Below, in pieces: positions 1 through 26,819 of a stretch of DNA of 64,000 bases. The stretch is taken from NCBI RefSeq assembly GCF_000003815.2, contig NC_049994.1, forward strand, positions 2,026,884-2,090,883. The letters run 5' to 3'. Below the pieces are notes generated by a model, which saw nothing but the letters and a program-made list of their open reading frames with translations, did no database searches and had not been told where the DNA came from. How positions within the stretch are numbered: position 1 is the first letter of the stretch; every line of letters begins with the position of its first letter. This stretch comes from Branchiostoma floridae (lineage: Eukaryota; Chordata; Leptocardii; Amphioxiformes; Branchiostomatidae). The position numbers and the translations under genes were made by a program.

Positions 1-34
1 TGAGTTCTTCTGCTGGAAAACAGGCTGGAATAAC

Positions 35-110
35 ATGGCTGGTTTACATGGCTGGTTTAAGGAGTTCATCCTTGTGGTATTCTTCGCCTGCTTGACCAGT
101 GCCCAACAAG
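35..110 (+). CDS. Exon 1: start codon and signal peptide
   Basis: ATG at 35 opens a 25-residue leader with the hydrophobic core FILVVFFACLTS followed by AQQ, a typical cleavage context. The exon ends at GT in AAG|GTAAGG with phase 1, which fits the two-base start of the next exon. A more upstream start cannot be excluded because the window begins 34 bases earlier, but the length and hydrophobic core suit a complete signal peptide. Confidence 0.7.
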
Positions 111-3100
111 GTAAGGGACTTCACGATATTTACCGAGGGGTGTGGGGTGGGGTGGTGTGCACTGGGGGGAGGGCCATGAATTTTTTGGGCGTGGGGGGAG
201 GGTCATCAAATTCATTTTGGCCTGGGGGGGAGGGTCATCGAAATAAGAGTGTCTTTAGGGGCCTTAGTAAATACAAGCAAAATGCGCCCTTCAAATGCAG
301 GAAATGACGTTTCAGACAGTCAAGATTTATAGATTTTTCCAAAACACGTCACATGCTCCTTAACGTCTGACATAAGGTACGTGACGTCTTTTACAAATGT
401 CACACGTCACACTGCCGACATACTAAAACACGTCACATGCTCCTTACTGTGTGACGTCTTTTACAGATGTCAAAACGTCATTATGACAAGTCATCGATGT
501 TGTTATTGGCAACATAAGTCGTAATAAACATTATCGTTCTGTTATCTGCACTTACTGTTACATTTTTGTAGCATACATTGAGGTTTTCTGGGAATTCCCC
601 CCTTTCACGGTTCCAGCCAATCAAGTCAAATTGATGACGTCATAATTACGTCATATTACGTCACCGTTGCGTCAAACGTACATAAACGTCAGATATTATG
701 TCTATATCATGCTCTGAAAGGGGCGGGCCTCAAAAGACCAAAAAAGCCCGGGAAAAGCCACCCCTGCATAGGGTTAATGAGAAAATCTATATTTATAGTG
801 TTTTTCATTATAGGACTCAAATTCCTGTAACATATAACTTGTGGTAGGTAGGTAGGAAGATTTGCAGATATCAATTTTGCAACACTTCCATTATTTGCAT
901 AATATTGCACAAACTAATTGTACTGCCCAAAGAAATGTGCAGCTTTTCAACAGAGCTGGAATCTACGACAGGAAGAGATGTGTCAAGTTTCCTATGTACG
1001 CGTTACTAGTATAATCAATATCTGATTGGTTGAACGCCCGTGCAAACTATGTCTAGAATACCGTCAAATTTCCAACGTAGTTTGTATGTATCTCAACGTA
1101 AGAAGAACAGGCAGATGTCTGCCATCTCGTACGGCCTAAATTTTATTTTTATTTTTATTTATAGTGTTTCCCTTTTAGGACTCAAATACCTGTAACATAA
1201 ATTACATAGCTTGTGGTAGGTAGAAGATTAGCGGATATCAATCATGTAAATAAGTCCCTAAATTGCATAATATTGCATACGATTAACGTCAAAGTGCCCT
1301 AATTAATCTCAGTACATATAGTAAATGATTGGATTGTCAGTATTGTGACCTTTGTTAGTTAAAAATGTTCATAATCAAGCATAAATTATGCAGATGTGAA
1401 AGTCATCTGCATCATCAGAATATTTCATGGAGGTATTAGGTCTACGAACTCTTGTCTTTGAAGCACCCTGTCCGCAAGACAACCGAATCGTACTGTCCAG
1501 TGGTAAAATGTACACCGTCCCTGAAGGCAGCTCAACGTATGGGGGTGCTCAGGAAGAATGCAGACAACAAGGCGGCATGGTTGCGATTCCAAGGGACGAA
1601 GAGGAACAACAGAACCTGGCGTTCCTAAAGAACTGCGTCAGCAGGTAAGGTGACAAATGTATGGGCTTTGGCCTCACTGCTAGTTGAATGGAAATTAGTG
1701 AACATTTTCATCAGGTCGGTACGTCACTTAATAAAGAAACTCATTTAACACAAAAATTGCTTTATTCATAACGACTTTTTGGTGACCGTCTGTCACTTTC
1801 GTCATGGCAATTCTGGATGGTTGACATAGCACTACAGCACAAGATGTTGCTGCGTCCGAAAGACGTTGAATGGATATTGTTGTCTGCAAAACTAGCAATA
1901 AGAGAGGCAGTAGCAAACTCATGCCATGCACTTTTACATTTAACAACATAGGGACGCTCAGTTTTGGCTTGGTATAAGGAACACAGCGGGTGTCTGGAGA
2001 GACGAAAGGGGCACTGCACTGGGCAGTTATACCAGTTGGGCATCCGGGGAGCCAGACAGCGGAGTGAACTGTGCGCACATCGTCTTCGGGGACAAAGTGG
2101 GCGAACGACGAGACAAGTGGGCAGACGCAAACTGCCTCGACCAATTCCGCTTCGTCTGCGAGATACAGGATGGTAAGACATATTAGACTTCTCTTTTCGA
2201 TCACCTTTGGCAGAATTACTCTAAAAAAAAGATATATTGTATGATAGAATTGTCCGATCAAAACAACATCCAGACGGAAATATGAACTGTGTCAATTGAA
2301 GAATCTTTATAATAGAAAGTTTATTTGCAAGATCATGCCCGAAGGATAATTGCAAATACATGATAGAAACATAGGGAACATGCATGTGACAATGAACAGT
2401 GATCAACATAATTGTAATCTATGGCCATAATCATTACGCACTTAAACGCACGTTTTGTGATACGATATTCCGATATAGAATGTACAAAACAAAACAGAAC
2501 GATACAGTATCGCCTGAATTGCGATATCATATACCTGATGACGATATTTAAATTACGTCTTAAGCTAAGGGCACAACCCACCGTACGTGCTTTTGGTCCG
2601 TACGTTTTTTGGGAGTCATGTTTTTCTGAAAAAAGTGGGGAAGGAATAGTAAGGGAAGGGAGGGAGTACGTCTCAACGCGCGTCACTTGCACGGCTGCGT
2701 AAGGTGTAAGTATGTGGTCTGCACGCCACGCCTGGTCGTGAGCCGGTTGTGTGTATCGTTCGTTGCGCAAGTGGTAAGTGAGTTGAACATGCGATTTCTG
2801 TGTGATTGCCACGTTACCGTATATGCAGGCCCTGCTTATATGCGCTGCGTATGTACGGTGTCCTTACTCGCGTTACGGGGCACACGCGTCGCCTGTAACG
2901 TGGACAAATAACATCCCGCTCAATTTCTAGTTATTGATAGTTAACTATTAAGTTAATCGATACAATTAAGTCACGTATGCTTCGCTTTCATGTGACGTGT
3001 TCGTAATAGGTCGAACGTGACGTATTTCACGTCCCATGTGACGTAAATATAGGTCAAACGTCACGTATATAGCTCCTGTATTTTTGAAACAGATATATTG

Positions 3101-6100
3101 CCATATACTGTATATACTACAAGTGTATGTGTGCCGTAGTGGTGGTGAGTAATGTGTGTCAACGATATCGATAGCTCCATATTTAATATAAGACACATTT
3201 TACGTTTAGTTAAGGTACCTTTTTTCTACACGAAATATTGACAGAGAAATGATGCCATGTGTCATACTTCTCCAGGTGTGTGGCTGGTACGGGATCCGTC
3301 ATGGGTTGTGGACTCCGCCGGCACACCGAAGGTACACAACGGAGTGACGTATGATGCCACAAAAGCCTTGGATGGAGACACTGGGACCTACTGGAACCCT
3401 AGGGGTATGGGTCAGAACTACAACAACTGGTACATTGTACTGAACCTCACAGCGCCCCATACTATCACCCGCGTCGCTGTAAACAACTACGGAGACACCA
3501 CCCATGGCACTGCAGCCTTTACGCTGCAAAAGTCGCAGGTTGGGAGTCCGTACAACTGGGAGGACGTCGTGACCGTTACTACCGTGCAGGGAGGGACGGA
3601 CGAGCGGCAGGAGTTCGGTGGGTTCCAGGGAACAGCTCAGTATTGGAGGTTCCTAATTACCGAGACCCACTCGGGCTGGCAGCCATGGCTCACAGAGCTG
3701 GACTTCTACGGAGGTAAAGGAAAAATCGTCTTGTTTTATAAGCTATAGAAACATGGATACAGGGAAGGTTCAAAGTAAATGGTTACTAAAGGGTAACATT
3801 GATTTGAATTTAATAAGTAGTGCGATCGTTAAGTGGGTCGTACAGCCGTAGCCACACCCTTTCAAAATAATCTTCACGTTTGCCTGTCGCTCAGCGCTTT
3901 TGCAGTCGGCGCTCAGTGGTCACACAACTGTCGCTCAGTGATCACTAAGTTGTCCACTTTACATGCCCTTTGTGTTGCGCCCGGATATATCCGTGATAGC
4001 GTATTCCCCCAAAGTAGCAGCTTTTCGTGCGTGTAGCGCACGAACCCCGGAAGTTAGGGACTTGTTCGGGGGTTTCTTTTTGGAGGTCAGCGGCCAACCC
4101 TGGCACTGAAAATCTGGCAGTTTAAGGGTTAATTCTGTGTTATGATCTTCTTCCATCTGTATTAAAGGGGCATTCCACTCCACACGGGAGTGTTATTTTC
4201 CGATAGATCTTAATTTTAGGAATAAATAAATACAAACTACTTCACATCATACGATAAAGTATCCAGTTACTCCAGGTGCCTCAAAAGCATTCAGTCTTCT
4301 ACTAACTCCCCAAGTACCCGCTAATTGAATTAATCCTATGGTTGAATACAATAAAATTCTTTTAGGTAAGGTTACAAAGCTAATTTCATGGGCGCTAAGA
4401 AAGATACGTCTTGTTATGTGTTCTTTGATATCTTGTGAACAATTGAACTTCTTGATGTACTTAGCGCCCCTCATTAATGCCGAAATTATTCACGATAAAG
4501 GAAGTGTCTACACGTATAGGGAATGCATTGGTAGGGTCTGCATGGGTTTAGTCATATTGTTTTACAAAACACACATTGCGTAATTTATCCCAAGGTGAAC
4601 TCAACAAAATTCGGCTGATTATGTATTCATTGACACATTATCTATCGAAAAACACCACCCCCTTCTGGAGTGGAATGCCCCTTTAACTACATTGGCTCCT
4701 CAACATTCAAATCCTTTCCTACACATCAATCGATCAAGAACATTTGATGACTAGTTAACGATACCGTGGTATGGCAAGATTGTGACAGAAAATCAATTCG
4801 TGTGAACCAGTCAGAATTGCCCTGAAGAAGGCGACAGACGAAACATCGGTGAGAATAAAGCATTGGTTGTGTAAAAAGAGTATCTTTATTTGGTAGCTGT
4901 CAATGTCGCCCTGAGGAAGCCGGCGTTCCAAACCAGCACCGGTTGGGGCGGGGTCGCCAGCCGGGCCGTAGACGGGAACACCGCTACCGACTGGGACTCT
5001 GCCTCCTGCACAAACACTGCACATTACGGGGAGGAAAATGCCACCTGGTGGGTGGATCTCGGACAAGCGTATGCGGTTGATAGGTAGGGATTTATACATT
5101 TATGTTCATCTGTCGGTCATTAGAGTAAAGATGCAAAACTAATTAAGTCACACAAAAGTGCAGACCCGCACAAACAAACGCAGAAAAACCTGTCGGACCT
5201 CCTGGTCATTCTGGCCTCTTTTCAATGGTCCCCAGATTTTCCTATTTGATCCAAGCATCAACAATTCTGTCTATAGCAGCCAACATGTTTTTTTTTCTTA
5301 AAGTCCCTTGAGTGTTCGCTATAGACAGGTTGGACTAAATAACACTGTCTTTGCGTTTGTGTACGTATGATTATTAGCATTAGGCATTTAGGACATATAA
5401 CTATATTTTGTTCTCCTGATTTCTACGATGATTCGAGAGGATGAGTCAAGATTCAAGTCACAAAATCCCTAGCAATGATAGTGATTGTGGATCTATCAAT
5501 CTTTACACACATTATGTGATGTTTATACTTTTCTTAGGAACGTTCATCCGAATATTTGTATAAAACCTATTGCTCTTCCGAAAATAATGCCATCAGGTTG
5601 GTAAATCATATGACATACAAGATTTTTTACACAACCAGTTTGTCTCACCTGCTGACGTTTCGATATCTGTCAGACATCTTCCTTAGAGCTTCTAACTGGA
5701 GTTATAGGTGCGTCAGTAGGTGAGAAAGACTGGTTGTGTAAAAGAAAACTCTAACACATTGTCTATAATATCTACAGAGTGGTCATAGTCAACCGTCAGG
5801 ATTGCTGTCGTGATCGGCTCAACCCCTTCAACATCCACATCGGGGACTCCGAACAGGTCAGCACCAACCCCCAGTGTGGAGGTGACCATCACATCAACGT
5901 GACCCAGCCGTCCATTTCCGTCGCCTGTCCGGGGATTCGGGGGCGCTATGTGGCCGTCCGTCTGCCTGGACCATCAAGAATACTGACCCTTTGCGAAGTC
6001 CGGATATTGTCGGGTAAGTCTGCACTACATTTACTTCACATATACCGAGTCCTAGCTTATACAACTATACAAATGAATGCTGACTTTATTCTTATGACCA

Positions 6101-9100
6101 GCTAGTAGACCTCCAAAAAACTACATTCCTGTTAAAATCACAGAACTCACTAATCATTAAAAACGTGTGAGTTATGTAGAATCATGATATAGCTGAATAA
6201 TAGACATAGAATAGACACTTTTTTTACTGTCTGTACCCTTTCAATTAGCCTACTTGCATAAATAGATAAAAAATAAATAGATTATTCGCTTATAACAGTT
6301 ATGTGCAAGCGAATCTGTTATCTATGACTCCTAACCGCCAATATCACGTCCCTTCAGTCCCTGTGGAGGGTGTCAACGTCGCACTGGGGAGGTCAGGTCA
6401 GTTAATTTCAAACGGTCATTTCAATAACTGTCTAACGTTATATACTAGTGAAGTAATTTGATAGAGGGGTGCTATCGCATTTTTTTCTCTTACTGGGGAA
6501 TTAGTAGACATGAATTTAAACATGTCATGATCACAGCATTACTTAGTGAGTTAGCAGAGTTAACATGCCGCTTCATGCTGCCTACGCAGATGTCAGCTGC
6601 TCCCCCGGGAAACTGCCATGCGAAGGTTCCTGCATCCTGGCGTTGCAGCGGTGTAACGGTTGGATGGACTGTTCGGACGGGAGTGACGAGGAAGGTTGCG
6701 GTAAGGCTTAGGTCACATTTCCCGTCCGGGCAGTTGTAATAAACAAAAAAAAAATACACCGTATACCTAGAAATATACACAAATCATGCCCATGAGTCTT
6801 ATTTTGACATTTTGTGTATTTTGATGCATGTCATACCATTCCCGTAAACTGCCCTGCCGGGCCCCGGTTTGAAAATGTGACCTAAGCCTAAGCAGTGAGA
6901 TCGCATAGCGCAGTGGTGGCGCAGCAGTGGCGCAACGGTGGCGCAGCGGTGGCGTGTTTGGCTCGGGACCGAGAGGTCTCGAGTTCGAACTCTGCCGTGC
7001 CACCGATATTGTGCCCTTGGGAAAGGCACTTTAAACGACTTTACTCTGGTGAAAATGAGTACCTAGCTTCGGATCGAATAGAACATTAAATGGAGACCCT
7101 GTGTTTGGGGAGAGCCACACCTCACGCACGTTAAAGGACCCGCCACAATTGTCGCAAAGAGTAGGGGACTTTCCCGGTGTGTGTGGATCAAACCTTACAG
7201 TCTGGNNNNNNNNNNNNNNNNNNNNNNNNNNNNNNNNNNNNNNNNNNNNNNNNNNNNNNNNNNNNNNNNNNNNNNNNNNNNNNNNNNNNNNNNNNNNNNN
7301 NNNNNNNNNNNNNNNNNNNNNNNNNNNNNNNNNNNNNNNNNNNNNNTCAGTCACTTACGAATACAGTTAATTCCAATTTTCTTCAATCAATGACTGTTTT
7401 TGTAAGGTAAGGTACATACCTCCCAAATTTTCTTGTGTTCTCTCGCGAGAATTGAGACTAGATCATTCCCCATGACGACGATGTGCTGTTAGACATCGAA
7501 AATTTGGGAAGTATGTACCTTACCTTACAAAACAGTCATTGATTGAAGAAAATTGGAATTAACTGTATTCATACGTGACTGATGAACCTCTTCAACGATG
7601 ATCAGATGGTGATAGTCACCTGTTACGTCAATCCTTCCACAACCGTGGTAAATCTAGATAAATAAATAAAGTTATCACGGATCCGTTCCTGCTTCCTCTC
7701 GGAAACAGGATTGATTGATAAAAGTTGATGTTATAAATTATGTTCTTTCCGCTGATAACAAAAGACGCGGGAAATGTCATCTGCACGCACTCCCGTCTCT
7801 TTGAGGAAATTAAATTTAAAAAATGATGTAGAACATACCGAGTTTTACTTTCTCTAATATGTCATGTATGTAAAATTTCATATTGAAAAAAATAAATACC
7901 TGATTATGAGTACTCAGAAATAGCTCAAGTCTTATTTCAATTATTGCAGTACAATTGTGATTAGTATTTGTTGTTAAATGAATAGGGTTTGTATATAAGC
8001 AAACTAGGCTTTTTTTCTCCCGTACGGAGTTTTTTTAAAACTATTTCAGCTTTAGTTTCTGTATTTGTATTCTCGTAAAAATAAATGAAATAACATTGTT
8101 ATAACTGTCAGTGTGCCTGCCGACTCCTGTGGATCTGAAGCTTGGCGACAGACTTACGATGCTGCCGAATCAGCTGGGCCAGACGACGTTTGAGGAGATA
8201 CGGAATTCCCCTGTCGTGGACCTGCTCGACAGTTCGACCAGCAACGCAGAGAACCGACATCCTGAGTTCCGGGAATTTGCATCTACGGTCATCTTCCCGC
8301 GATGTCTCCCGGTCTCCCAGTCCCCCAGGAGGTATTGAAAAACGCCAGTAGGCGATGTATTTTCCTGGATAAATAAATAAACTGAAACTGAATGTCTTGT
8401 CTCCGAAGATAACAGCCATTCCTAGAATTCGTCTCCACATGTAGACAACACGGCCTCGTTCTTATGAGTAAAGGTCACATTGGATTGATTATTATGGCAA
8501 TTATTCGGGAATGAACATACATTCAACTTAATATCAGACATGTTCATACTCACTATTACAAAAAGATGTTCGCGCTTAAAATTTCTTAATTTTGATTTTA
8601 CTTTGGCGGTCGGTAGAGCATAACAAACCTCACATGTGCACGTCTATCCTACCCGTTTCTATCCAGATTGTGTATAGACAGGAGAAGAGAACGGCAAGTC
8701 TAACCTGCCTTTTATTGTACATTGTAGGGGCACACAGCTGCTGCCGTGCCGCTCGTGGTGTGAGGAAGTCCTCCGCATGGCTGATGACCGGACGAAGACC
8801 AGGTTCCCTCCCTGTTACCTGTTTCCGTCACCACCTCACGCCTGTTGGAACCCGGAGCCAGAGACGAACCACAACGAAGGTAAGGAGGAAGACTAGATTT
8901 ATCACTTTCGACTGGTATTAGCACCTACAAAATGATTGATACCCTTTTCTAGACTGTTTCTAAATATATGAATTTAGTATAGAAGAGAATTTAGTCTCTT
9001 ACCCTTGTAAGAAGCAAACGTACAGTTCAATGGTCTGGTCGCTGTACATGTACAACCTCATTTCCCCACTTAAAATGACAATAGACGCGACTACAAGTAT

Positions 9101-12100
9101 ATTCCCAAAGATTACACAACAGACTGCAGGACGAGTTTAATACATTGCTTACGCTTACCACTTTAACACAGAGATAATAGACCAATGTTTTTAGTCAAAT
9201 GCTTTCTATGACATCATGATCTCGCAACTGACAAATACATAAAATCTCCTCAGGCATCTTTAACCCTCATCCGACCGTTACATTTTTACGACGAATCTGA
9301 TCGTATGGGGTCATTTTTGACCCCATTTTGTTTTGCTCATAGACATATTTCTGCTGGCTTATTTTGTCATTTCTATGTATTTACTGTTTCACCAATCTAT
9401 GAAAAATATTTTAACAAGTTTTGGTGTCAGTAGTTATTACTCATTATCATAATTTATGCAGAAAATGAGGAGAAACCACATTTGCTCTGAAAATCTACTA
9501 TACTCAACCTACTTAAACAATGTTTTGAATTATAGATTTCTAAACAAAGGTTTTGATGCTGCAATAATACTTATAGCATAATAATGCTATTTAACAAGAA
9601 AAAATACAATATTTGTGAAAAGTAACGAATTTATTACTTAATTATGCACCATATTCCGCCATTGAAACACACACATACAATAACTCTTGTCTATTTTCCC
9701 GCAGAGATATTTCTTGTAGGTTCCTTCTGCATATTCTGTCCATATATTGTTTCTTGATTAATTAGAAACATTTTCATTTTCATTAGCAAAGGTAATTAGT
9801 GCGTATTATCATAATTTATGCAGAATGTCGAAAAACAGTGTTTTACACTAAAATACTAAATTTCTTTCAAAATATTCGGTGTCTAATCATCTAAGCAACT
9901 ATAACTTGTTGCTGTAATAGCAATGATGAGGAATGCCTGTTATTTCATTGACATGTCTTGATATTTATGTAATTAATGATTCATAATTGGCTCGGGTCAT
10001 TTTTGACCCCACCGAACCAGACACAAACTTTCAAGTATAGCTTATACAATAATGGACAAAACTCGGTGAAAAAATGGTAGATGTTGTAAGACATGTATAC
10101 AAACAAATTCATGGAAGGAAATTTTTCTCCGATGAAAAATGTTGCTATGACAGATAAAAATATAGGCCTGGGGTCAAAAATGACCCCATACGGTCGGATG
10201 AGGGTTAAGATCAACTTCTCATTTCAAATTTCAATCATGGAAGTGTCTTTCTAAAAATTTTAAACAATTTTACTTTAAGATGAGTCATATATATATATAT
10301 ATATATATATGAAACTCACTACCGGTTACAATAAATGTCATAGTTCCGATGTAACTTTCGTCGCACAGATTCGCCATGCATCAGTTAGTACATTTATACG
10401 ATACATTACTAGTGTTTGGCCATTTCTCTTTCCCAGTTTGCTACCATGGCAGTGGCATAAACTACCGCGGTACAGCTTCCAGGGCAGATTGTGTGGAGTG
10501 GTCAAGGGTGCCGGCAGTCCTGTTTGTTATGTTAGTGAACGCTTACCCCTGGGCTAATCTGGACAGCAACTACTGCAGGAACCCTTATGGGGTCGAGCAG
10601 CCATTTTGTATGGTGGATGGCGGAGGCGGATACGGGGACTATTACACGGCGACATGTGATGACATCATGCCTTGCAGTAAGTTGTATTTCCAAGATGGAA
10701 TAACTTTCCTGGACCATATTCCCATGTCACTCGAAACATATTCCCAAGGTTACTCGGACCATATTCCCATGTCACTCGGATTATATTCCCAAGGACACTC
10801 GGACCATATAACCAAGGTCACTCGGACCATATTCCCAAGGTCACTAGGACCATATTCACAAGGTTACTAGGTCCATATTCCCAAGGTCATTAGGACCATA
10901 TTCACAAGGTCACTGGGACCGTATCGCCGAGGTCACACGGACCATATTCCCAAGATCACTAGGACCATATTCCCAAGGTTACTCGGACCATATTCCCAAG
11001 GTCACTAGGACCATATTCCCAAGGTCACTAGGACCGTATCGCCGAGGTCACACAGACCATATTCCCAAGGTCTTTCGGACAATATTCCCAAGGTCATTCG
11101 GACCATATCCCCAAGGTCACTTGAACGCATTTCCCAGGTTTTCGGACATGTATGAATGAAAACTTGTCAAGAGTCTTGGTCTGTATCTTTATCTATATAG
11201 CCTGCATAACCGCCCTTCGGCGTAACACACCAGGCTTTTTTTATTGCAACATATATTTACAAGACATGGTGACGGCACACTCAAGTCATGACTTATATTC
11301 ATGCCGCCACCGCAAAAGAATACAAATACATGGGTAAATAAGAAAACAAGATAACATTACATAATAACAAGTAAGCAAAGCACTGAAGCAAAAACAACAA
11401 ATGAAGATTGAAAGATATAAACTCAGAATATGATGATTAACTAAGTCCCTTAAGACGGGAAAATGATGTTTAGTCATTATTGAAGCCATTGGTATCTATT
11501 AAGAAAGTCTGCACAAACATCAATATTTTGGAATTTTCTGCAGAGGACAGAAAAAAATCGTTTCAGGAGCAACTGTACTAAAATGTCGTCGGATAGATTG
11601 TCCAAATCAAAACCTGCCAGTCTTCTCAAATTGCCGAAGATGAAAGATCTCTGTTGAGTGTAGTTAGGACAGTGTAGCATAAAGGGGCAAATGCTTTCGT
11701 ATGGGTTACCACAAGAACAAGCTAGACTAACAACAAGATTACGGGTGAACAAACTTTGATTTAAACTAGGAGTCCCAAGACGTGTGAGTAAAGCGCAGGG
11801 GAAACGGGGACCTAACGCGAAGTAACAAGCAAGGACGAGGCGCACAGATTTGGTCAATTTTTTTCTGAACAGAGGAAGGCTCAAGGATCGGCCAGAGTCA
11901 GTTTATTCCAATGATAAGTAGCGTATAAGTAGGGAACAAAAGATCTTTTGAAACGATCTGTAACACATATAGGTGTCTGAATATTTTGTTTGATGCGTAG
12001 ATCGTAATGAGTGGAGTGTAACACGAAAGGTGGTATCAACTCTCTCAAATAAGGACGGGTGAGACCTTGGATAATTTTGTAGAATAAAATACGAGAGTGA

Positions 12101-15100
12101 ACATGTCTACGGTCTGATAGTTTTTCCCATCCAAGTTCTTTAAGAATAGATAAATATGAAGACCCTACGATAGCACCGGATACAATAAGTGAACATTCGT
12201 ATTGAATGCGTTCCATCAGTTGTGAGTCGGGGATAGTGCAGCCATGCCATATAACGTCTCCATATTCAAGTGTACGGCGAATAAAAGATTTGTAGATAAT
12301 TTCCAGAACATTATGAGATAACTTGAATTTAAGTTTATTTAAAATAGATACCTTTTCTGGTGCATTGACTAGCATCTGCACTATATGGGGGTTCCATGAC
12401 AAGTTTGACGAAAGGTGGACTCCGATATGTCTGTGGCATTTGACAGATTAAATTACTTCGGTTCCAAGAAAAAGAGGAGGATGAGAAGGGGGATTTGATT
12501 TTCTGGAATAACACATCTCAACAGTTTTAGAGGGGTTGAGTTCCATTAGCCATAAATTCGTCCATGATAATTTTTTAGAAAGATGAGAGTTAAGTCTGGC
12601 AGCTGATGAAGAGGGACTTTCAACAACGTCAAACAATGAGCTGTCATCGGCGAAAAGGAAAGGATGTGTTACAGGTCCATCAACCATATCATTACTATAA
12701 ACGAGAAATAAAAGGGGCCCTAACACAGATTCCTGAGGAACACCTGCGATTATTTCACACAAATTTGAGCATTGACCATCAATTATGACTCGTTACCGTG
12801 TAAATAACTCTGAAACCAGTTAAGAATTGGCCCTACCACCCCGTTTCGTTGAAGCTTGAATATCAATCCTTGATGCCAGACTTTATCAATGTCGACTTAT
12901 CAACTTTAGAAATGTCGAAATATACAGCTCTGACTTCATTATTTGAGTCGAGTGATTGACAAATTTTGTTGGAGATATAGACCAGTTGACTAAAGGTTGA
13001 ATCCCCACGAATGAATCCTGACTGGAAAGAGTTTAACAAGTTTTGAGATAACAAATGATTATACAAATGTTTATATACTATATTTTCAAGAATTTTGGAT
13101 AAAGAGGGTAATAACGACACAGGGCGGTAGGGACAATACACGTGGGTCACCTTTTTTAAAAATTGGCACAACATTTGCCCGTTTCCAAGCTTCAGGAAAA
13201 ATGCCGTGGCAAAGAGACAAATCAAACACATACGCAATTTTATCAGAAATAAAGGGGGAAATAGGTTTTAAAAAACGATTATCAATATTATCCCACCCAT
13301 ATGCTTTGGAAATGTCAAGCACAAAAATTTAAAATTCGACCTCAGTAGCTGAGGTTTCACAATCAAACAGACGTACATCAGTCAGATAATCAAAGTGCGG
13401 TAGGCATGCATTAGTGTAGTCAATTGTTGACTGGAGTGAAAAGTATTTGTTTTGTATTTGCTTCTGTATCTGTATCTATATAGCCGGTATAACCGCCCTT
13501 CGGCGTAACACACCAGCTTCTGTATCTGTATCTATATATCCGGCATAACCGCCCTTCGGCGTAACCCACCAGCTTCTGTATCTGTATCTGTATCTATATA
13601 GCCGGTATAACCGCCCTTCGGCGTAACACACCAGCTTCTGTATCTGTATCTATATAGCCGGTATAACCGCCCTTTAGCGTAACACACCAGCTTCTNNNNN
13701 NNNNNNNNNNNNNNNNNNNNNNNNNNNNNNNNNNNNNNNNNNNNNNNNNNNNNNNNNNNNNNNNNNNNNNNNNNNNNNNNNNNNNNNNNNNNNNNNNNNN
13801 NNNNNNNNNNNNNNNNNNNNNNNNNNNNNNNNNNNNNNNNNNNNNNNNNNNNNNNNAGCTTCGCAGGCACGCGGCGCGGCAGCAGCTGGTCGTATTACAC
13901 TGAACAACCCGTCACACCCAACTTCTGCTCATCGCCTCTGATCTATGCTGAAAATAAAGCATGATGATTCCTATTTCATTTAGAAGGCGTTTGCTTGGAC
14001 ATGGGTCTTCCAACATTCGGTAGTAGAAGCCCTGTCAAGAGGTTCTACCGCGTGGGAGAAAAGGTCACGTACACCTGCGACGAAGGGTACACTCTGGACT
14101 CCAGACATACCAGCAGAGTCAGGTGCCTCCAAGGGGGCATCTGGCAATATGACAAGCCCAGCTGTTCAGGTGATTGTGAGAGATTTGTCGGTCTGAACAA
14201 TTCTGCATGTTCTACAAAGATGTGCACAGTAAAGTTAGCGCTTAGAGGAAGTTTGAACGTGTCGCATGAACATTTGGTATGTTTTCTTCAAAGCAGTTGT
14301 ATCACTTTCTACATGATCAATGTATTTGTCCGAGCCGAGATGAGAGCAAAAATACGATATCATTATTATATGAAGAGGAATCTCTATTTGTCAGCTATAA
14401 AAGAAACGTTTGCCACAGTTATTAAACAGAAACATTTTCTGTTTCTTTCTGGACCTAATAACTAATCAGTTCTGTCTGCCTGTACAACACATTTAAATAC
14501 CTCTAAATCATATTACGCATAAAATACTTTTATTTTACCTTATATTTACGTGTGCCCAAAGGTCCGATATTTTAANNNNNNNNNNNNNNNNNNNNNNNNN
14601 NNNNNNNNNNNNNNNNNNNNNNNNNNNNNNNNNNNNNNNNNNNNNNNNNNNNNNNNNNNNNNNNNNNNNNNNNNNNNNNNNNNNNNNNNNNNNNNNNNNN
14701 NNNNNNNNNNNNNNNNNNNNNNNNNNNNNNNNNNNNNNNNNNNNNNNNNNNNNNNNNNNNNNNNNNNNNNNNNNNNNNNNNNNNNNNNNNNNNNNNNNNN
14801 NNNNNNNNNNNNNNNNNNNNNNNNNNNNNNNNNNNNNNNNNNNNNNNNNNNNNNNNNNNNNNNNNNNNNNNNNNNNNNNNNNNNNNNNNNNNNNNNNNNN
14901 NNNNNNNNNNNNNNNNNNNNNNNNNNNNNNNNNNNNNNNNNNNNNNNNNNNNNNNNNNNNNNNNNNNNNNNNNNNNNNNNNNNNNNNNNNNNNNNNNNNN
15001 NNNNNNNNNNNNNNNNNNNNNNNNNNNNNNNNNNNNNNNNNNNNNNNNNNNNNNNNNNNNNNNNNNNNNNNNNNNNNNNNNNNNNNNNNNNNNNNNNNNN

Positions 15101-18100
15101 NNNNNNNNNNNNNNNNNNNNNNNNNNNNNNNNNNNNNNNNNNNNNNNNNNNNNNNNNNTCTGTTATATATGTGAGATTCTTCTAGATCTATTTATAGACA
15201 GTACACAGAGATAACAGAATTTAAGTAATTAATGTTGTAACTTTTATTTTTCAGGACGAAAAGAAGGAGCTTCTTGTAGCCACTTTAGTCATCGAATTCG
15301 TAAGTAGACGCAGTTATAGCACATTCAGTCTCTTTGAAAAAAATATTCCATTTTTTCGTTTTGCATTTCGCGACTTTTCCACAAAGAAAATTAAATTGTT
15401 TGCCAGACCTGGCAGGACAGCCGGCTGACGTGGTGGCCAGAGTACTACGGGAACATCCAGACCCTCAGCGTGCGGGACAGCAGCATCTGGACACCTACAC
15501 TTACTCTGAAGAGGAAGTATGTGATGGTCTCTAAGTAAACTATTATCATATCAACAACATCACATCATGTTAAATATGTTTTTGATATGATAAATGGTAT
15601 GTGCGCGTGTGTTTGTGTTAATGTGTCTGTGTACATGCGTTTGTGGAGAAATCTGTTGATCTTTTCCAGAACGAAATCAGCCATGTTATTAGAAATAGTA
15701 TGATGCTTTGTTACCCCGCAGTGCCGATGGTAAGTACCAAGGCTTGCAAAAGGGCGTACCGATCCTGATAAGACCCGATGGTACCGTAACATGGAGGGTG
15801 GAGACTCTGACAAGCACCATCTGCGATGCAAAGCCGTTCTTCTTCCCTGCTGACACAATGGAATGCCACATCTGTTTCTCTGTGTCCTCTGCAATTGAAC
15901 AAACCATAGGTAAGATGCTGTGAATATGCCACGAATGTTTTCATTTGTGTTTATTTGAGTGGAATAAAGATTTCCATTAATTTATTTCAGGTTAGGCCGC
16001 TTCCAGTAAACTTGAGAAATATGTATTGTTGTAAGAAGTGAACTAGTGTAGTAAAATTGGCACTAGTGCGGTAGACTATCACGTACAAAGTTGTCAACCA
16101 CCTTCATGGCTTCCATATTGGTGCCACTTTTACAACTATCAAACTAGTTTCACTTCCAGAACTACAGATACGGTTCCTCCCTAGTGTCATTTCTACAAGT
16201 ACAATCTAGGGTTAAACACTGGAATAAAAACGTCATTCATTCCAATTTTTTCGACCTAACTCATTATTTTGCAGAGGATGTCAATGATGCAATTTGCTTA
16301 ATGCGTCCAAAGATTAGAATATCCGAGACAAAGAAAACTAATCATGCCAGGACACATCTCTCATTGACAATCATTTTTTGAAATGATTTGTGAAACACAG
16401 AATGTGGAGGGGGCAGTACCTGTGACGTCTGGTCTCCCCCACAACAGGAGGGCGAATGGAATCGGAAGGACAAGATCTTCGCTGAAGGCAACAAGAAGGC
16501 GTGCTTCGCTGTTCAGCTAGAGAGGATCCCGCTGTTCCACATCGCCACGACCGTTGGGCCCTGCGTCATCCTGGTGGTGCTGATGACCATCACCTTTATC
16601 ATGCCCATAGACAAGGGAGACAGGATCTCCTTCGGAGTGACCATCCTGCTCTCCATGGTCGTGTCTCTCGTGTTTGTCACGGAGGTACTTCCTGTTAAAG
16701 GGGCGCTGCCGTTTTTCGGTGAGGACAGAAAATTGTCATATTCTTATTTTTGCTCATATATACACGACGAAGGGGTCACCCACACGTCTTAAGATAGAAT
16801 AAACAAATAGATACATAGACTGATTTTCTTTAGCTCCTTAGTTACCTGAATGGACTTCGGGAAGGTGGGGAATGTAATTAACGTAATAACTTTTTTTTAA
16901 ATTCAAGAACCTTTAAGTTATTTTTCAAGGACCAATCAGATAAAGCCATTCAGAGAACATTCGGGTATCTGTTAATTGAAAAGAGTAGGAGTCCTTTCCG
17001 GTGTGAGTGGACTTGTAGCTTATGCTCTTCAGTGCAAACCTGGCAACGACGTAAGATGTTTTACCGGTTATGTACTGAAACAAAACAAATGCCATGATTC
17101 ATATTACAGCCACGCTTATCGTCGTCTGCATGGGGCTGATGGGACTTTTCCTGTTCTTCACCATGTACATCATCAGCCTCCACGACAAGGAGGGGAGTCT
17201 GTCACCAATGGCCAAGACTTTCTTTCTCCACTACATGGCAAAGTATGTTCTACTCGTTACAACACAAAGGTTTTAGACTGAAAAGACCAAATGAAATAAT
17301 GCGAATTGCGTACATTGAGGCATTCTTGTTTCTATAAAAGCACAGGTATCATCAGAAAAATTGCAAATCTCTTATCCTCGAAAACATTTAAAATATCTTA
17401 CTTAAGTTTAATTTAGCAGGTTGAAGCAGCCCAAACCAGCACCTAAGTGGATTTCCGTGGGAGGAAGATTTCATAGCGGATTTTGAGAGAGTTTTGTTGA
17501 ATACCAGTGGTCACATTTTGTAATGATATGAACGTTAGATCATAGAAATTAAGATAAACATTGGTTAGAAGCTTCCACATCGTCATCTTTCCTTCTTGCT
17601 GATGTTTGATAAGGTTCCTGCTGCTCGGAGACCTCACAGAGAAGGAGGCTGGTCCGACCGGCGGGAAGCTGTCCTGGCCTGAGCGGGCCAACCGCGTGGT
17701 CCCTGCCGATGACGTGGTCAAGGTCGACGGAGAGGAGACCACAGACAATGTCTACGAAGACTTGGCGGAGACCGACGGAAAGAACCCGACCGATGTCTTC
17801 GAATTCGATGGTATGATAAAAGTCGAGGTCGAGAGCCAAGATCAAATCTCCGATGACGTAGTGAAGGTCGACGGAGAAACCCCAGCTGATGTCTCCGGTA
17901 CAACAGGCGACATCCCTGCCGAAAACGTTGCGGAGACCGACGTAGAGACCCCCGCAGCTGTCTCCGGGACACCCCACCAGCCGTCCGGCCCGCCCACTCG
18001 CCTGGAGGCCGCCGTGGAAGAGCAGACCTCTTGCCTGCGTGACCTGATTAGCATCGTTCAGGAGCAGGCGGTGAAGTCCGAGCAGAAGGCGGAAGAGGTG

Positions 18101-18256
18101 ATCCACAGCCTGGAGGAGCTGGCCAAGGCGGTGAAGGGCGATCAGGAAGTGTCCGATTACACCCTGCTGACCAAGGTCCTGGACAGGCTGTGCCTTGTCC
18201 TGTACGTCATCAGCGTTGCTGTGGCCGTGCCCATTTCCATGTATCTGGGCAAGTAA
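35..18256 (+). CDS. Mosaic lectin/Frizzled/kringle/sushi - Cys-loop ligand-gated ion channel (multi-exon gene model)
   Basis: Exons read from splice sites and domain matches: 35-110, 1464-1644, 1952-2172, 3276-3713, 4897-5083, 5778-6013, (6358-6396, optional), 6590-6700, 8112-8331, 8728-8879, 10437-10676, 13984-14169, then gap 14576-15158, 15255-15299, 15407-15516, 15722-15909, 16401-16718, 17110-17242, 17614-18256 (TAA). About 1240 codons are visible. Domain order: signal peptide, CTLD, F5/8C, F-lectin, LDLa, Fz-CRD, kringle, CCP, channel LBD, TM1-TM4. All junctions are phase-compatible except CCP (ends phase 1) to the first visible channel exon (starts phase 0). That exon lacks the usual ~50 N-terminal LBD residues, so at least one exon must lie in the gap. 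Predicted role: a plasma-membrane channel subunit with a very large adhesive ectodomain. Alternative: two genes in tandem, with the end of a secreted lectin and the start of a receptor both hidden in about 1.1 kb. Domain identities are sure; one transcript is likely but unproven. Confidence 0.72.
300..790. repeat. Interspersed repeat with ACGTCA-rich body and TTAACCCTAT end
   Basis: About 480-620 matches, in inverted orientation, 36330-36490 (shared CATCGATG, GTCGTAATAAACATTAT and the GGTATTCCCAGAAAA-type block). Its end near 740-775 carries an AAAAAAGCCCGG/TAGGGTTAA block that also occurs near 36130 (inverted), 18790, 22090 and 47330, marking an abundant dispersed family. No coding content. 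Confidence 0.5.
797..1276. repeat. Direct duplication of ~115 bp in intron 1
   Basis: The segment 797-910 (from TTTATAGTGTTTTTC through TTGCATAATATTGCA) recurs at about 1159-1276 with scattered substitutions. Both copies contain CTTGTGGTAGGTAG. The sequence between holds no gene I can recognise. Confidence 0.6.
1464..2172 (+). CDS. Exons 2-3: C-type lectin domain
   Basis: Exon 1464-1644 (acceptor TTTGAAG|CA) and exon 1952-2172 (acceptor AACATAG|G) join in phase 2 to give one CTLD of about 130 residues. Visible hallmarks are CPQDN at the start, AQEECRQQGGMVAIP, FWLGIRNTAGVW (the WLG core), SWASGEPDSGVNC and the closing WADANC...FVCEIQD. The sugar/calcium motif is degenerate: EPD in place of EPN or QPD, and WAD in place of WND, so canonical calcium-dependent mannose or galactose binding is doubtful. 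The domain leaves in phase 1. It sits first after the signal peptide, as the outermost module. Confidence 0.85.
2966..3091. repeat. Half of a CGTCAC-rich MITE
   Basis: Matches the right arm of the element at 24936-25252 (shared CACGTATATAGCTCC and GTATTTTTGAAACA). Only one arm is clearly recognisable, in intron 3. Confidence 0.5.
3276..3713 (+). CDS. Exon 4: F5/8 type C (discoidin-like) galactose-binding domain
   Basis: One 438-nt exon (146 codons), bounded by TTCTCCAG|GT and GGAG|GTAAAG, phase 1 at both ends. The protein shows the discoidin pattern: ATKALDGDTGTYW near the start, NNWYIVLNLTAPHTITRV in the middle, YWRFLIT near the end and a final LTELDFYGG. These are the conserved strand signatures of F5/8C-like jelly rolls, which bind carbohydrates, lipids or matrix proteins. 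It is entirely one exon, as expected for a shuffled module. Which ligand it binds cannot be told from sequence. Confidence 0.8.
4166..4682. mobile_element. TTAA-flanked MITE (piggyBac-like) in intron 4
   Basis: AGGGGCATTCCACTCC at the left end is repeated inverted as GGAGTGGAATGCCCCT at the right end, and both ends are flanked by TTAA (4162-4165 and 4683-4686). A 517-bp non-autonomous element; no transposase frame inside. Confidence 0.75.
4897..6013 (+). CDS. Exons 5-6: F-type lectin (fucolectin) domain
   Basis: Exons 4897-5083 and 5778-6013 join in phase 2 (AG|A, Arg). The first half has VNVALRKPAFQTS, ASRAVDGNTATDW and the strand WWVDLGQAYAVDR. The second half has RQDCCRDRLNPFNIHIGD and ends with CEVRIL. 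The vicinal cysteines and RxDxxxxR motif match the F-type lectin signature. The upstream His (in AHYGEE) is 25 residues before the Arg, one fewer than the canonical 26, so L-fucose binding is probable but not certain. The module is phase 1 at both ends. Confidence 0.85.
5623..5745. repeat. Foldback repeat in intron 5
   Basis: TTTTTACACAACCAGT at the left pairs with ACTGGTTGTGTAAAA at the right, with further pairing CTCACCTGCTGACG / CGTCAGTAGGTGAG. A related tail occurs at about 4855-4882. Confidence 0.6.
6358..6396 (+). CDS. Possible exon 7: short 13-codon linker resembling an F-lectin start
   Basis: CCCTTCAG|TC to TCAG|GTCAGT bounds 39 nt, phase 1-1, reading roughly VPVEGVNVALGRS. NVAL followed by a basic residue echoes the first strand of the neighbouring F-lectin domain. 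It may be a linker exon or the remnant of a duplicated lectin domain whose remainder has decayed. Including or skipping it does not change the frame. Confidence 0.35.
6590..6700 (+). CDS. Exon 8: LDL-receptor class A domain
   Basis: One 111-nt exon (37 codons), CTACGCAG|AT to TTGCG|GTAAGG, phase 1-1. It reads as a full LDLa repeat with six cysteines and the calcium cage CNGWMDCSDGSDEEGC. The family coordinates calcium and mediates ligand binding in receptors; LDLa modules also occur in acetylcholine-receptor clustering proteins of nematodes. The donor site directly abuts a small transposon (see the MITE at 6705). Confidence 0.9.
6705..6888. mobile_element. Harbinger-like MITE abutting the LDLa exon donor
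   Basis: Perfect 16-bp terminal repeats GGCTTAGGTCACATTT / AAATGTGACCTAAGCC, flanked by a TAA duplication (6702-6704 and 6889-6891), as made by PIF/Harbinger elements. 184 bp, no coding capacity. The left TAA lies inside the splice donor of the preceding exon. Confidence 0.75.
6897..7205 (+). mobile_element. tRNA-derived SINE
   Basis: A tRNA-like head with a B-box-like GAGTTCGAACTC follows a triplicated GTGGCGCAG motif. The GCCCTTGGGAAAGGCACTTT block is shared with the SINE at 19440-19893. The body runs into the 7206-7346 gap. Confidence 0.65.
7206..7346. other. Assembly gap (141 N)
   Basis: Run of N inside intron 8; open frames across it are artefacts. Confidence 0.99.
7347..7583. repeat. 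Large inverted repeat with 85-bp arms
   Basis: Left arm 7347-7432 and right arm 7498-7583 are nearly perfect reverse complements (for example GACTGTTTTTGTAAGGTAAGG and its complement), separated by about 65 bp. The left arm starts at the gap edge, so the element may be longer. Confidence 0.75.
8112..8879 (+). CDS. Exons 9-10: Frizzled-type cysteine-rich domain
   Basis: Exons 8112-8331 and 8728-8879 join in phase 2 (AG|G). Hallmarks in order: VCLPTPVDL, TMLPNQLGQTTFEEI (the LPN-LG-T motif), FREFASTVIFPRC, then LLPCRSWCEEV (the PCRSxCEEV motif) and FPPCYLFPSP. Fz-CRDs bind Wnts or lipid groups in Frizzled, ROR, MuSK and sFRPs. The loop between FPRC and PCRSWC is 15 residues by this model, longer than the usual 9-11; the extra residues come from sequence shared with a transposon at 31.6-31.9 kb. 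Exit phase is 1. Confidence 0.82.
8308..8695. mobile_element. Interspersed element filling intron 9
   Basis: Reverse-complement match to 31552-31941 over about 390 bp, with only scattered differences. It begins inside the last ~24 nt of Frizzled exon 9 and ends 32 nt before the exon 10 acceptor. It carries TAAATAAATAAACTGAAACTG and no coding frame of note. Confidence 0.75.
9264..10204. mobile_element. piggyBac-like non-autonomous transposon in intron 10
   Basis: Flanked on both sides by TTAA (9260-9263, 10205-10208). Terminal repeats CCCTCATCCGACCGT / ACGGTCGGATGAGGG, plus subterminal GGGGTCATTTTTGACCCC palindromes near both ends. The 941-bp interior is AT-rich with no transposase frame. Confidence 0.8.
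10437..10676 (+). CDS. Exon 11: kringle domain
   Basis: One 240-nt exon (80 codons), CTTTCCCAG|TT to TTGCA|GTAAGT, phase 1-1. It starts CYHGSGINYRGTASRADC, then VEWSR, later NYCRNPYGVEQPFC and closes with TATCDDIMPC, giving the six-cysteine kringle pattern. One feature departs from the family: the stretch AVLFVMLVNAYPW is unusually hydrophobic between the second and third conserved blocks. Fz-CRD followed by kringle is the arrangement of ROR-family receptors. Confidence 0.88.
10708..11140. repeat. 23-bp minisatellite in intron 11
   Basis: About 19 diverged copies of GGACCATATTCCCAAGGTCA(ctc), starting about 30 bp after the kringle exon. An open frame runs through part of the array but is not coding evidence. 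Confidence 0.85.
11285..13440 (-). pseudogene. 5'-truncated CR1/L2-like LINE, decayed reverse transcriptase
   Basis: On the - strand, pieces of one reverse transcriptase appear in broken frames: GWDNIDNRFLKP, EAWKRANVVPIFKKGDP, VSLLPSLSKILENIVYKHLY, QSGFIRGDSTF, VPQESVLGPLLFLVYSNDM, then FLFADDSSL with the catalytic ADD, and a C-terminal cysteine region. It is the same family as the + strand LINE at 48452-51989, so two copies lie in opposite orientation 36 kb apart. Endonuclease sequence is missing, as expected for 5' truncation. It sits in intron 11 of the channel gene, antisense to it, between two stretches of the 56-bp minisatellite. Confidence 0.85.
13459..13695. repeat. 56-bp minisatellite, continuing into a gap
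   Basis: Units of the form TAACCGCCCTTCGGCGTAAC plus (TGTATC)n, four copies before the N gap. One single unit also lies at 11177-11236, on the other side of the LINE. Confidence 0.8.
13696..13856. other. Assembly gap (161 N)
   Basis: Probably a collapsed minisatellite, because the 56-bp array runs into it. Confidence 0.95.
13984..14169 (+). CDS. Exon 12: sushi/CCP domain
   Basis: One 186-nt exon (62 codons), TTTCATTTAG|AA to TTCAG|GTGATT, phase 1-1. Four cysteines and the CCP signature are visible: YRVGEKVTYTCDEGY, RVRCLQGGIW and KPSC. CCP modules mediate protein-protein contacts in complement and in synaptic receptor scaffolds. The next downstream exon must begin in phase 1 and is probably inside the assembly gap. 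Confidence 0.88.
14576..15158. other. Assembly gap (583 N) expected to hold channel exon(s)
   Basis: Lies between the CCP exon (exit phase 1) and the first visible channel exon (entry phase 0). The missing part of the ligand-binding domain, about 50 residues, would fit here. Confidence 0.95.
15255..15909 (+). CDS. Exons 13-15: Cys-loop receptor ligand-binding domain (N-terminal part missing)
   Basis: Exons 15255-15299 (DEKKELLVATLVIEF), 15407-15516 and 15722-15909. The second begins TWQDSRLTWWPEYYG and reaches IWTPTLTLKR; the junction creates NADGKY, the classic loop-A region of nicotinic receptors. The Cys-loop is perfect: CDAKPFFFPADTMEC, two cysteines 13 residues apart with the FxPxD core. 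After it, where nicotinic alpha subunits carry the loop-B Trp (GSWTY), this protein reads FSVSSAIEQ, so the key aromatic residue is absent. About 50 residues are missing upstream and are expected in the gap. Confidence 0.9.
16401..17242 (+). CDS. Exons 16-17: end of LBD, TM1, TM2 pore, TM3 of Cys-loop receptor
   Basis: Exon 16401-16718 starts ECGGGSTCDVWS, lacks the vicinal CC of alpha subunits, contains GEWNRKDK, then TM1 from PLFHIATTVGP. The pore helix TM2 reads GDRISFGVTILLSMVVSLVF with an Asp at -1', Arg at 0', Thr at 6', the gate Leu at 9' and a Glu near 20'. Acidic -1' is the pattern of cation-selective subunits, so cation permeability is predicted. Exon 17110-17242 encodes TM3 (ATLIVVCMGLMGLFLFFTMY) and PMAKTFFLHYMAK, equivalent to the start of the intracellular loop. 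Phases: 1 in, 1 between, 2 out. Confidence 0.92.
17614..18256 (+). CDS. Exon 18: acidic intracellular loop, coiled coil and TM4, with stop
   Basis: Terminal coding exon, acceptor GATAAG|G in phase 2, stop TAA at 18254. After FLLLGDLTEKEAGP the large M3-M4 loop is acidic and internally repetitive: DDVVKVDGE occurs twice, with related AETD/TPA units between. A helical, coiled-coil-like stretch follows (LEAAVEEQ...VIHSLEELAKAV), matching the position of the nicotinic MA helix. TM4 is VLDRLCLVLYVISVAVAVPI and the protein ends seven residues later. Codon composition is GC-rich, unlike the flanking AT-rich DNA, which supports real coding use. Confidence 0.92.
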
Positions 18257-18414
18257 AGATAGTGTTCAGACCCAGGGGCTCCGTGAATACGCCCGAGCAC
18301 AATCACAGCATAACTGTTACTTATTTACTTCAGCTTTGAATGATCTATATATACAGCTAGAGCTGCCCAATTGTTACAACGGGTTAGTCCGTCAATCAGA
18401 TATTTTGAAGGTAA

Positions 18415-25252: not shown

Positions 25253-25799
25253 AAACAAACGTATTGCCAAGATATGAGTCAAACACGGATCTGGGACACG
25301 GAAATTATGCCATAATATGTACCCTAAGTAAGTGGTCATATTTCGACGATGCCGCAAATAAGGCATGAAAGACCTTCTTCTGGTGGATATGAAGTCTGCA
25401 GTTCTGTGGTACAAGATCTCATAAGCATATCAAGTGGTTTTGTAAGCAAATTGTATCTCAAAGACCAATACTAGCTTTTGCTGTTGAGTTACCCAGTTTG
25501 ATAAATGATGTACTTGATAGATGCTCCAACCTGGTATAGGAATCCGATCGTACATGTTGCCACCCGATGAAAACACTTTCTCCCCAACTGTGCAGAGCCA
25601 TCTTTTCAAATAGCATTGGTTGACTATGTTGTACTGAAATGACAGGCATGTCGAGTCGGCACAACATGCTTCTGCACAGCCCTGGAGGGTGACACCAGGA
25701 GGACTGGATATGTCTGAACCTGGACCCCAACAATCAGTCCGGGGGACGTGGCGAAACGCTGATAATCCGCATGTTTCTGAAAAAGATGAATGAAGCTTG

Positions 25800-25990
25800 A
25801 AACCATCGTGTGTGGCGTAACTGGTAGAGCGTTCGGCTCAGAATCTATAGGTCCTGAGTTCGATCCCTGCCGTGCCCCCAGCGTTGTGCCTTTCCTCACT
25901 TCACCCAGGTGTAAACATGGATATCTGACTTCGGTCAGGGAGGTAAAAGACTACCTTTACCTTCTGTCTGTACCTTGTATGGGGCACTCT
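25800..25990 (+). mobile_element. tRNA-derived SINE
   Basis: TGTGGCGTAACTGGTAGAGC resembles an A box, and CCTGAGTTCGATCCC a B box, at normal spacing; then GCCGTGCCCC and a non-tRNA body. Confidence 0.7.
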
Positions 25991-26518
25991 TTATATAAAT
26001 TACAAAACTTGAGTGCAGTGCAACATTGTCCTAGTCTGTTAAAAAGCAAATAGAAAAAAAGCTTAAAAATTCGGTCACAAGCGCGCACGATTAACTGCGA
26101 TTTGCGCAGTACGTCATAAGTCGGGAACATTCGAGCGCAATAGTTGAAATATGTAATTCCCTGGTCACAAAGGTCGTAGTTCATCGTGCGATAAGGTCAT
26201 AAGACCGTGCCGGCGTCAATCGCTGGTAAATCAAAGTAAAACGGGGAGCCTCCTATGACGAAAAATAGGGCTGAATTGGATTTTGAACATGTATAAAGTT
26301 TCTCCATCGTCGTAAGTTTTTTTTTTATTGTCCCATATCAGACTTCATTACAGGGGGCATAGATTTGTAATGATGACGTTAATTATTCATATATCTTTAG
26401 CATGTTGTGATGGTTTCAGTTTTCCCTGATATTTTTCTTCAGGCTTTATTCAAACAAAATTCAACATCACATTACAAATCACAACAGTGCAATAGAAACA
26501 TTAATTACAAGCATGCCA

Positions 26519-26815: not shown

Positions 26816-26819
26816 ATAC

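Follow-up and report, generated by a model that had tools for sequence, protein, structure and literature searches.

A family of predicted Cys-loop channel genes with kringle, CCP and, in subgroups, lectin modules ahead of the ligand-binding domain in Branchiostoma floridae

Introduction

Among Cys-loop receptors, the subunits of the nicotinic acetylcholine receptor (nAChR) and the 5-HT3 receptor combine a ligand-binding domain (LBD), a Cys-loop, four transmembrane segments (M1-M4) and an acidic, cation-type M2. The cation-selective branch has an acid at M2 positions -1' and 20' and lacks the PAR motif. The acetylcholine site comprises a loop A WxPD motif with Tyr and an aromatic box of loop A Tyr, loop B Trp, loop C Tyr and loop D Trp. 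Vertebrate nAChR genes have LBD exons of 45 nt and 110 nt. To our knowledge, eukaryotic Cys-loop receptors have the LBD alone outside the membrane. The amphioxus gene described here shares the listed channel features with both receptors, and the 45- and 110-nt exons with nAChR genes. It differs in seven additional extracellular modules with 764 residues and in the lack of a signal-peptide exon ahead of the LBD; its family further differs in lacking the vicinal Cys pair and the canonical aromatic box and in a shorter loop C region.

ROR and MuSK receptors span the membrane once and carry Ig domains. They share with the amphioxus protein an Fz or Fz-like domain followed by a kringle, as described for chick MuSK (PMC3927609), and an amphioxus paralogue on contig C18 has PDB matches that include ROR kringles; they differ in being kinases with neither a CCP module nor a channel.

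In functional terms, the nearest counterpart is DeCLIC, a bacterial pentameric channel that likewise has extra domains N-terminal to the LBD. According to passages of PMC12664993, this N-terminal domain makes up about half of the receptor mass, consists of two calcium-binding jelly-roll lobes and appears to speed gating; DeCLIC is presented there as the sole pentameric channel whose N-terminal domain has been characterised in part, and the eukaryotic parallel is drawn to the intracellular domain. Its modules are unrelated to the amphioxus arms.

Amphioxus nAChR expansions are reported in PMC6354393, in passages that mention no extra domains; its main text does not contain the word "kringle". 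Likewise, "kringle", "sushi" and "fusion" are absent from the main text of a pentameric-channel inventory (PMC4795631), and a search of the texts of PMC6071037 and PMC6526094 for the domain names gave no match. Within the literature searched, from which subscription papers mostly fell outside, the sole trace is one sentence in PMC4967905. The passages of that paper list ortholog pairs with domain architectures that seem restricted to Branchiostoma, one of them with Neur_chan_memb (B. belcheri 269420_PRF0 and its B. floridae partner), and warn that such models can be prediction artefacts. This pair may belong to the family described here; the passages name neither a family nor a function for it.

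Results

A single reading frame from signal peptide to M4

We analysed a stretch of 64,000 nt of contig NC_049994.1 (C16:2026884-2090883; in the following called the window) and searched the whole 513 Mb assembly of 431 contigs for related loci. A preliminary description of this DNA had proposed a series of extracellular domain exons followed on the same strand by a Cys-loop channel. Pfam searches of the three forward frames of positions 1-18301 bore this out, identifying Lectin_C, F5/8C-type (in two places), LDLa, kringle, Sushi, Neur_chan_LBD and Neur_chan_memb domains; of the modules named before, Fz alone was not found in these unspliced frames. The three reverse frames of the same region gave nothing above the cut-off.

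The 17 visible exons (Table 1) could be chained with in-phase joins, using GT-AG splice sites chosen by eye and joined by script. With LBD exon 2 borrowed from the paralogue P2, the spliced model encodes 1281 residues in a single frame without internal stops that opens with the signal peptide and ends with the stop codon at 18254-18256. It places 764 residues ahead of the LBD, in agreement with the approximately 760 extra residues estimated earlier. Every border between extracellular modules is in phase 1, and phase 2 introns lie inside the C-type lectin (CTLD), F-lectin and Fz-like modules. The DNA around exon 1 is 96% identical between the window and P2. The LBD had initially been recognised from 15407 onwards, which overlooked the 45-nt LBD exon at 15255-15299.

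Table 1 Features of the predicted gene in the window (positions in the 64,000-nt stretch)
Feature	Position	Strand	Remarks
Exon 1, start codon and signal peptide MAGLHGWFKEFILVVFFACLTSA	35..110	+	phase 1 out; also in paralogue P2
C-type lectin exon, first	1419..1644	+	phase 1 in, 2 out; second acceptor inside exon possible
C-type lectin exon, second	1952..2172	+	phase 2 in, 1 out; Pfam and splicing
F5/8C (discoidin-type) exon	3276..3713	+	phase 1-1
F-type lectin (fucolectin) exon, first	4897..5083	+	phase 1 in, 2 out; Pfam, phmmer
F-type lectin exon, second	5778..6013	+	phase 2 in, 1 out; Pfam, phmmer
LDL-receptor class A exon	6590..6700	+	phase 1-1; Pfam
Fz-like cysteine-rich exon, first	8112..8331	+	phase 1 in, 2 out; donor gtattg, least sure border
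Fz-like exon, second	8728..8879	+	phase 2 in, 1 out
Kringle exon	10437..10676	+	phase 1-1; Pfam and genome search
CCP/Sushi exon	13984..14169	+	phase 1-1; donor CAG/GTGATT (exon/intron)
Assembly gap, 583 N	14576..15158	+	place of LBD exon 2 by paralogue comparison
Channel exon 3, 45 nt, DEKKELLVATLVIEF	15255..15299	+	LBD
Channel exon 4, 110 nt	15407..15516	+	LBD, reaching loop A region
Channel exon 5	15722..15909	+	LBD including Cys-loop (C-x13-C)
Channel exon 6	16401..16718	+	LBD end, M1, M2
Channel exon 7	17110..17242	+	M3
Channel exon 8	17614..18256	+	acidic M3-M4 loop, M4, stop

LBD exon 2 is absent from the visible window sequence. In the N-free paralogue P2 (C16:2405087-2418133; 13047 bases), the interval between CCP and exon 3 contains, besides a 232-bp inverted-repeat element, a single exon of 116 nt that is entered in phase 1 and left in phase 0 (VDIKGTLQDDLLYGYSPNQAPDADTAITFSGTVEQITDL). 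We place the missing exon in the assembly gap because gap-free paralogues have it at this position. The CCP end and exon 3 are separated by 1086 bp both in the window and in a third paralogue, P3, and by 1071 bp in P2; because this spacing matches, the length of the gap is approximately correct and exon 2 must lie inside it. Channel exons 3 and 4 match the exon sizes known from vertebrate nAChR genes.

The 232-bp element in the P2 intron is bounded by terminal inverted repeats (ATACCCCTGTCACATT) and is visible in P3 as well. The window gap probably contains it too, and it may be the reason for this gap. In the paralogue at C16:1720k, an otherwise normal LBD exon 2 carries a Thr/Glu-rich insertion of approximately 44 residues between helix 1 and strand 1.

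Further features were observed in the window. The kringle-CCP intron contains two minisatellites, at 10711-11136 (23 bp x 18.6) and 13460-13695 (56 bp x 4.1), and, at 12400-13150 on the minus strand, two weak, broken reverse-transcriptase traces below the cut-off. Reverse-transcriptase/endonuclease frames of the non-LTR retrotransposon type lie at 32338-33210 (minus strand) and 48453-50582 (plus strand). Neighbouring minus-strand frames at 25433-30703 encode PAN, GON and laminin-G-like/concanavalin-type domains and probably represent another shuffled extracellular gene.

Identity of the extracellular modules

After splicing, Pfam matches were obtained for F5/8C (1.1e-21, two stretches), Lectin_C (5e-15), kringle (1.3e-10), Sushi (2.4e-8) and LDLa (1.6e-7). 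The F-lectin is firmly identified by phmmer matches to FBP32 (1.9e-48) and to the lectin 1k12 (3e-16). The fucose motif of F-type lectins reads H...RxD...R; the window module has the H and RQDCCRDR, with a spacing one residue shorter than in that motif.

The module listed as Fz in the preliminary description is best named Fz-like, because the Fz profile stayed below the Pfam cut-off of 32.1 bits in both the window (spliced, E 0.0024, 18.8 bits) and P2 (1.4e-5, 26.1 bits), and Pfam gave no Fz match for the C18 copy, for which an exon border had to be guessed. The other modules of that list were all recovered by Pfam.

A short frame at 6270-6458 of the window, with VEGVNVALGRSGQL, is also found in P2. 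It resembles the start of another F5/8C or F-lectin exon and may be an exon remnant. In the minus-strand gene of the C18 paralogue, a 21-bp tandem repeat of 31 copies (6335-7014 of the stretch read) sits in a long Thr/Ser/Pro-rich open frame upstream of the LDLa exon, which may encode a mucin-like stalk of that copy.

A cation-type pore without the canonical acetylcholine site

The joined channel half (exon 2 from P2) matched Neur_chan_LBD (5.4e-28) and Neur_chan_memb (1.6e-17) in one frame. The latter profile was covered over positions 2-226 of 233, with M1-M4 including the M2 pore and the M3-M4 loop present. The best PDB matches were nAChR subunits (E 1.9e-29). By its predicted LBD, Cys-loop and M1-M4, the channel half belongs to the Cys-loop pentameric ligand-gated superfamily.

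We compared 20 loci, the window copy included. All 20 have the Cys-loop C-x13-C. In all 20, M2 positions -1', 0' and 9' are occupied by D, R and L, respectively, and position 20' by E or D. The PAR motif is absent, and the acidic M2 residues agree with the cation-type rule in 20 of 20, so that the predicted pore looks cation-selective.

The vicinal Cys pair of the loop C region was absent in all 20 sequences, and the corresponding region of the best-matching nAChR is longer. In loop A, the 18 of 20 sequences with an exon 4 match have IWTP, IWIP, VWTP or IWKP, and in alignments by eye, with exon 4 visible in these 18 of 20, the aromatic box residues are missing at the aligned places. Loops A and C therefore led us to reject a canonical acetylcholine receptor; a small ligand other than acetylcholine could possibly open the predicted channel.

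At least 63 related loci

The preliminary description had treated the architecture as a lone oddity. The architecture itself stood, and the genome search placed the fusion in a family. Searching the genome with the channel half yielded 144 exon matches. We counted the 74 matches to the M1-M2 exon as loci, the remainder being other exons or second pieces, and excluded a lone M3 match at C11:56705. All locus counts refer to the best 139 of 387 candidates, which were scored. Sixty-three loci, window included, had 39-96% identity to the query and were assigned to the family, and 11 with 24-33% were called classical; the line at 39% was drawn after the step from 39% to 33% had been seen. Separate searches with the Fz-like module, CCP plus exon 2, and kringle were intersected with these loci by position, up to a limit of 32 kb or the next channel. 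This intersection used 112 of 127 CCP matches (15 exon 2 matches being kept apart), 82 of 136 kringle matches, the last two picked for their nearness to channel loci, and 88 of 88 Fz matches.

The family thus comprises at least 63 channel loci on 19 contigs. Among the 63 listed, 61 have a CCP match upstream on the same strand, 60 a kringle match, and 59 both in order. An Fz-like match accompanies 43 of 63, with Fz-like, kringle and CCP in this order in 41. None of the 11 classical loci has a CCP, kringle or Fz-like match upstream. The CCP lies 1.4-6.2 kb from the channel in 59 loci and 23-25 kb away at C11:103880 and C3:9265565; with the limit tightened to 16 kb, 59 of 63 loci still have a CCP. 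The exceptions are C4:18898458, with neither CCP nor kringle, C11:19757784, without CCP, and two loci without kringle, C16:2345465 (with a 1153-bp N run upstream) and C19:8582868. A match on the wrong side or strand within 10 kb was found at one locus, C16:1712142, which has an opposite-strand family neighbour at C16:1719886. The family may be larger, because 139 of 387 candidates were scored, or smaller, because some of the close copies on C16 (94-96%) may represent duplicated alleles.

We considered whether the seven-module array might be a constant family trait and rejected this, since lectin exons occur near few of the 63 loci. Near family loci, window included, we found a CTLD exon in at least 2 of 63, F5/8C in at least 7 of 63 and F-lectin in at least 9 of 63; these are lower bounds, because each search scored its best candidates and the counts are based on 14 of 150 CTLD and 28 of 150 F-lectin matches, both selected by eye, and on 65 of 65 F5/8C matches. 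The predicted family core is kringle-CCP-channel, to which Fz-like, LDLa and lectin modules are additions in subgroups.

At C8:9517k-9519k and C5:4746k-4749k, sets of Fz-like (four matches), kringle and CCP modules were observed without a channel match of their own. They may be truncated copies, copies with missed exons or related non-channel genes.

The junction between CCP and LBD

Spurious fusion by gene prediction is known to affect lancelet gene models, as passages of PMC4967905 point out, and the window gap falls exactly between the two halves. The model could thus combine two adjacent genes, one for a secreted multi-lectin protein and one for a channel, that were repeatedly co-duplicated. 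We therefore examined the 13 paralogues that are N-free from CCP to LBD exon 2, together with the donor visible in the window. The CCP donor is in phase 1 in all 14 loci and the acceptor of exon 2 in all 13 paralogues. The exon 2 match had an E-value of 1e-5 or better in 11 of 13 and was weak in the two most distant loci, C10:11259k and C19:1376k (0.003 and 0.09). Wherever an exon 2 match was listed (15 of 15 loci), it lies between the CCP and the M1-M2 exon.

Measured from the last full CCP codon, the intervals to exon 2 are 99, 128, 193, 224, 231, 270, 360, 364, 392, 458, 631, 846 and 861 bp. The shortest, 99 bp, leaves no room for a gene end, a promoter and a signal-peptide exon. The introns of C17:6528k, C14:10645k and C18:5856k have no ATG frame of at least 14 codons; C16:1722k and C10:11259k have such frames, none with a phase-1 GT in the tested range. 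In the other 8 of 13 introns at least one such frame is followed by a phase-1 GT, the most hydrophobic being in C17:2079k; compared by eye, these frames are not common to distant copies. An ATTAAA occurs at 14421 in the window, after the CCP exon; like the frames with a phase-1 GT, it speaks against a single gene. The read-through frame past the window donor is not a conserved gene end, because the C18 copy diverges beyond the donor.

A stop codon and poly(A) site after the CCP, with a separate promoter and signal peptide in the gap, had been named as the arrangement that would speak against a fusion. It is contradicted by the four copies with intervals of 99, 128, 193 and 224 bp; three of these four lack any ATG frame of at least 14 codons, and the fourth has no phase-1 donor on any. 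A separate channel gene would also need a signal-peptide exon ahead of LBD exon 2, and a shared one is absent, while order and strand agree in 59 of 63 listed loci on 19 contigs. On this junction and linkage evidence we rejected the two-gene artefact, which we consider highly improbable. The earlier proposal of a single gene for ectodomain and channel is thus supported at the genome level by phase, by 13 of 13 junctions and by linkage in 59 of 63 loci. As judged from genomic sequence, the architecture is real rather than a chance juxtaposition, and one fused gene is predicted with near certainty.

Selection on the two halves

Compared with P2, dN/dS was 0.35 for the ectodomain (655 codons), 0.13 for the channel (261 codons) and 0.37 for the M3-M4 to M4 exon (202 codons); two short exons reached 1.25 and 1.34, with very few changes. 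The values against P3 were 0.40 for the CCP (61 codons) and 0.13 for the channel (261 codons), and against the C18 copy 0.49 for the ectodomain (421 codons) and 0.29 for the 51 channel codons compared. These ratios indicate purifying selection on both halves. A pseudogene was rejected, as the aligned codons are free of stops and dN/dS is below 1 for both halves.

We compared identity to the window copy in 41 loci and left out three that lacked a CCP or kringle value. In the remaining 38, median identity was 78% for the M1-M2 exon, 63.5% for the CCP and 61.5% for the kringle; the M1-M2 exon had the higher identity in 35 of 38 loci when set against the CCP and in 38 of 38 when set against the kringle. 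This pattern is as would be expected for a constant effector with a variable sensor; alternatively, the greater divergence of the arms can reflect weaker constraint.

The constraint on the channel half also bears on the idea that these genes mostly provide soluble or membrane-tethered decoy lectins, with a channel part that is non-conducting or usually spliced out. The lost canonical agonist site and the channel-less Fz-like/kringle/CCP sets at C8:9517k and C5:4746k would fit such decoys. Against them, constraint is strongest in the channel half (dN/dS 0.13) and M2 hardly varies across 20 loci, which makes decoys an improbable explanation. A functional cation channel is the likely product.

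Discussion

As predicted from the genome, these genes represent an apparently undescribed variant of the Cys-loop receptor that exists as a large family. Its likely source is phase 1-1 exon shuffling, for which passages of PMC4284660 describe lancelets as active.

The presence of kringle, CCP and, at some loci, sugar-binding modules on a channel suggests surface sensing rather than ordinary neurotransmitter sensing. In the arrangement we propose, the adhesion and sugar-binding chain would join the start of the LBD, where an ordinary subunit has its signal-peptide exon. Assembly of the subunits as pentamers would give each channel several arms, with kringle and CCP as a constant stalk; the lectins, LDLa and Fz-like module would form binding heads whose set varies from copy to copy. 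These arms might bind glycans, cell surfaces or microbial surfaces, and binding, clustering or pull on the CCP beside the top of the LBD, acting as a mechanical link, could gate or tune the cation current. We favour, with some confidence, this overall reading of a fused cation channel subunit that is gated or tuned by what its arms bind; that the arms are the main sensor or gate control is more tentative. Among the ligand classes considered (glycan, Wnt, adhesion, immunity), Wnt appears least supported because the Fz-like module is divergent.

The arms of the fused gene might instead merely place or anchor the channel, for instance at a synapse, a secretory surface or a cell junction, while a small ligand opens it through the LBD. 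F5/8C, CTLD and CCP modules are common adhesion parts, and purifying selection acts on the LBD, which is preserved from helix 1 through the Cys-loop; both points are in line with anchoring. The loss of the acetylcholine-site signature (no vicinal Cys pair in 20 of 20, loop A altered in 18 of 18 with exon 4) and the greater divergence of the extracellular modules relative to the pore argue against it, and we regard anchoring alone as rather unlikely.

Beyond gating by the arms as such, a large family with variable arms and a constant pore could form a recognition system, in which each gene has its own module set, pentamers are mixed, and binding to microbial or self/non-self surfaces opens the pore. 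This extension is speculative and, on balance, unlikely; if true, recognition would be converted into ion flux without a second messenger.

The finding bears on the doubt, printed in passages of PMC4967905, that such lancelet architectures could be prediction errors. The family would further offer a natural test of N-terminal gating control, so far known partly from one bacterial channel, as described in passages of PMC12664993. A family of approximately 60 genes with adhesion and lectin arms would indicate that a basal chordate co-opted this channel class to sense contact or patterns.
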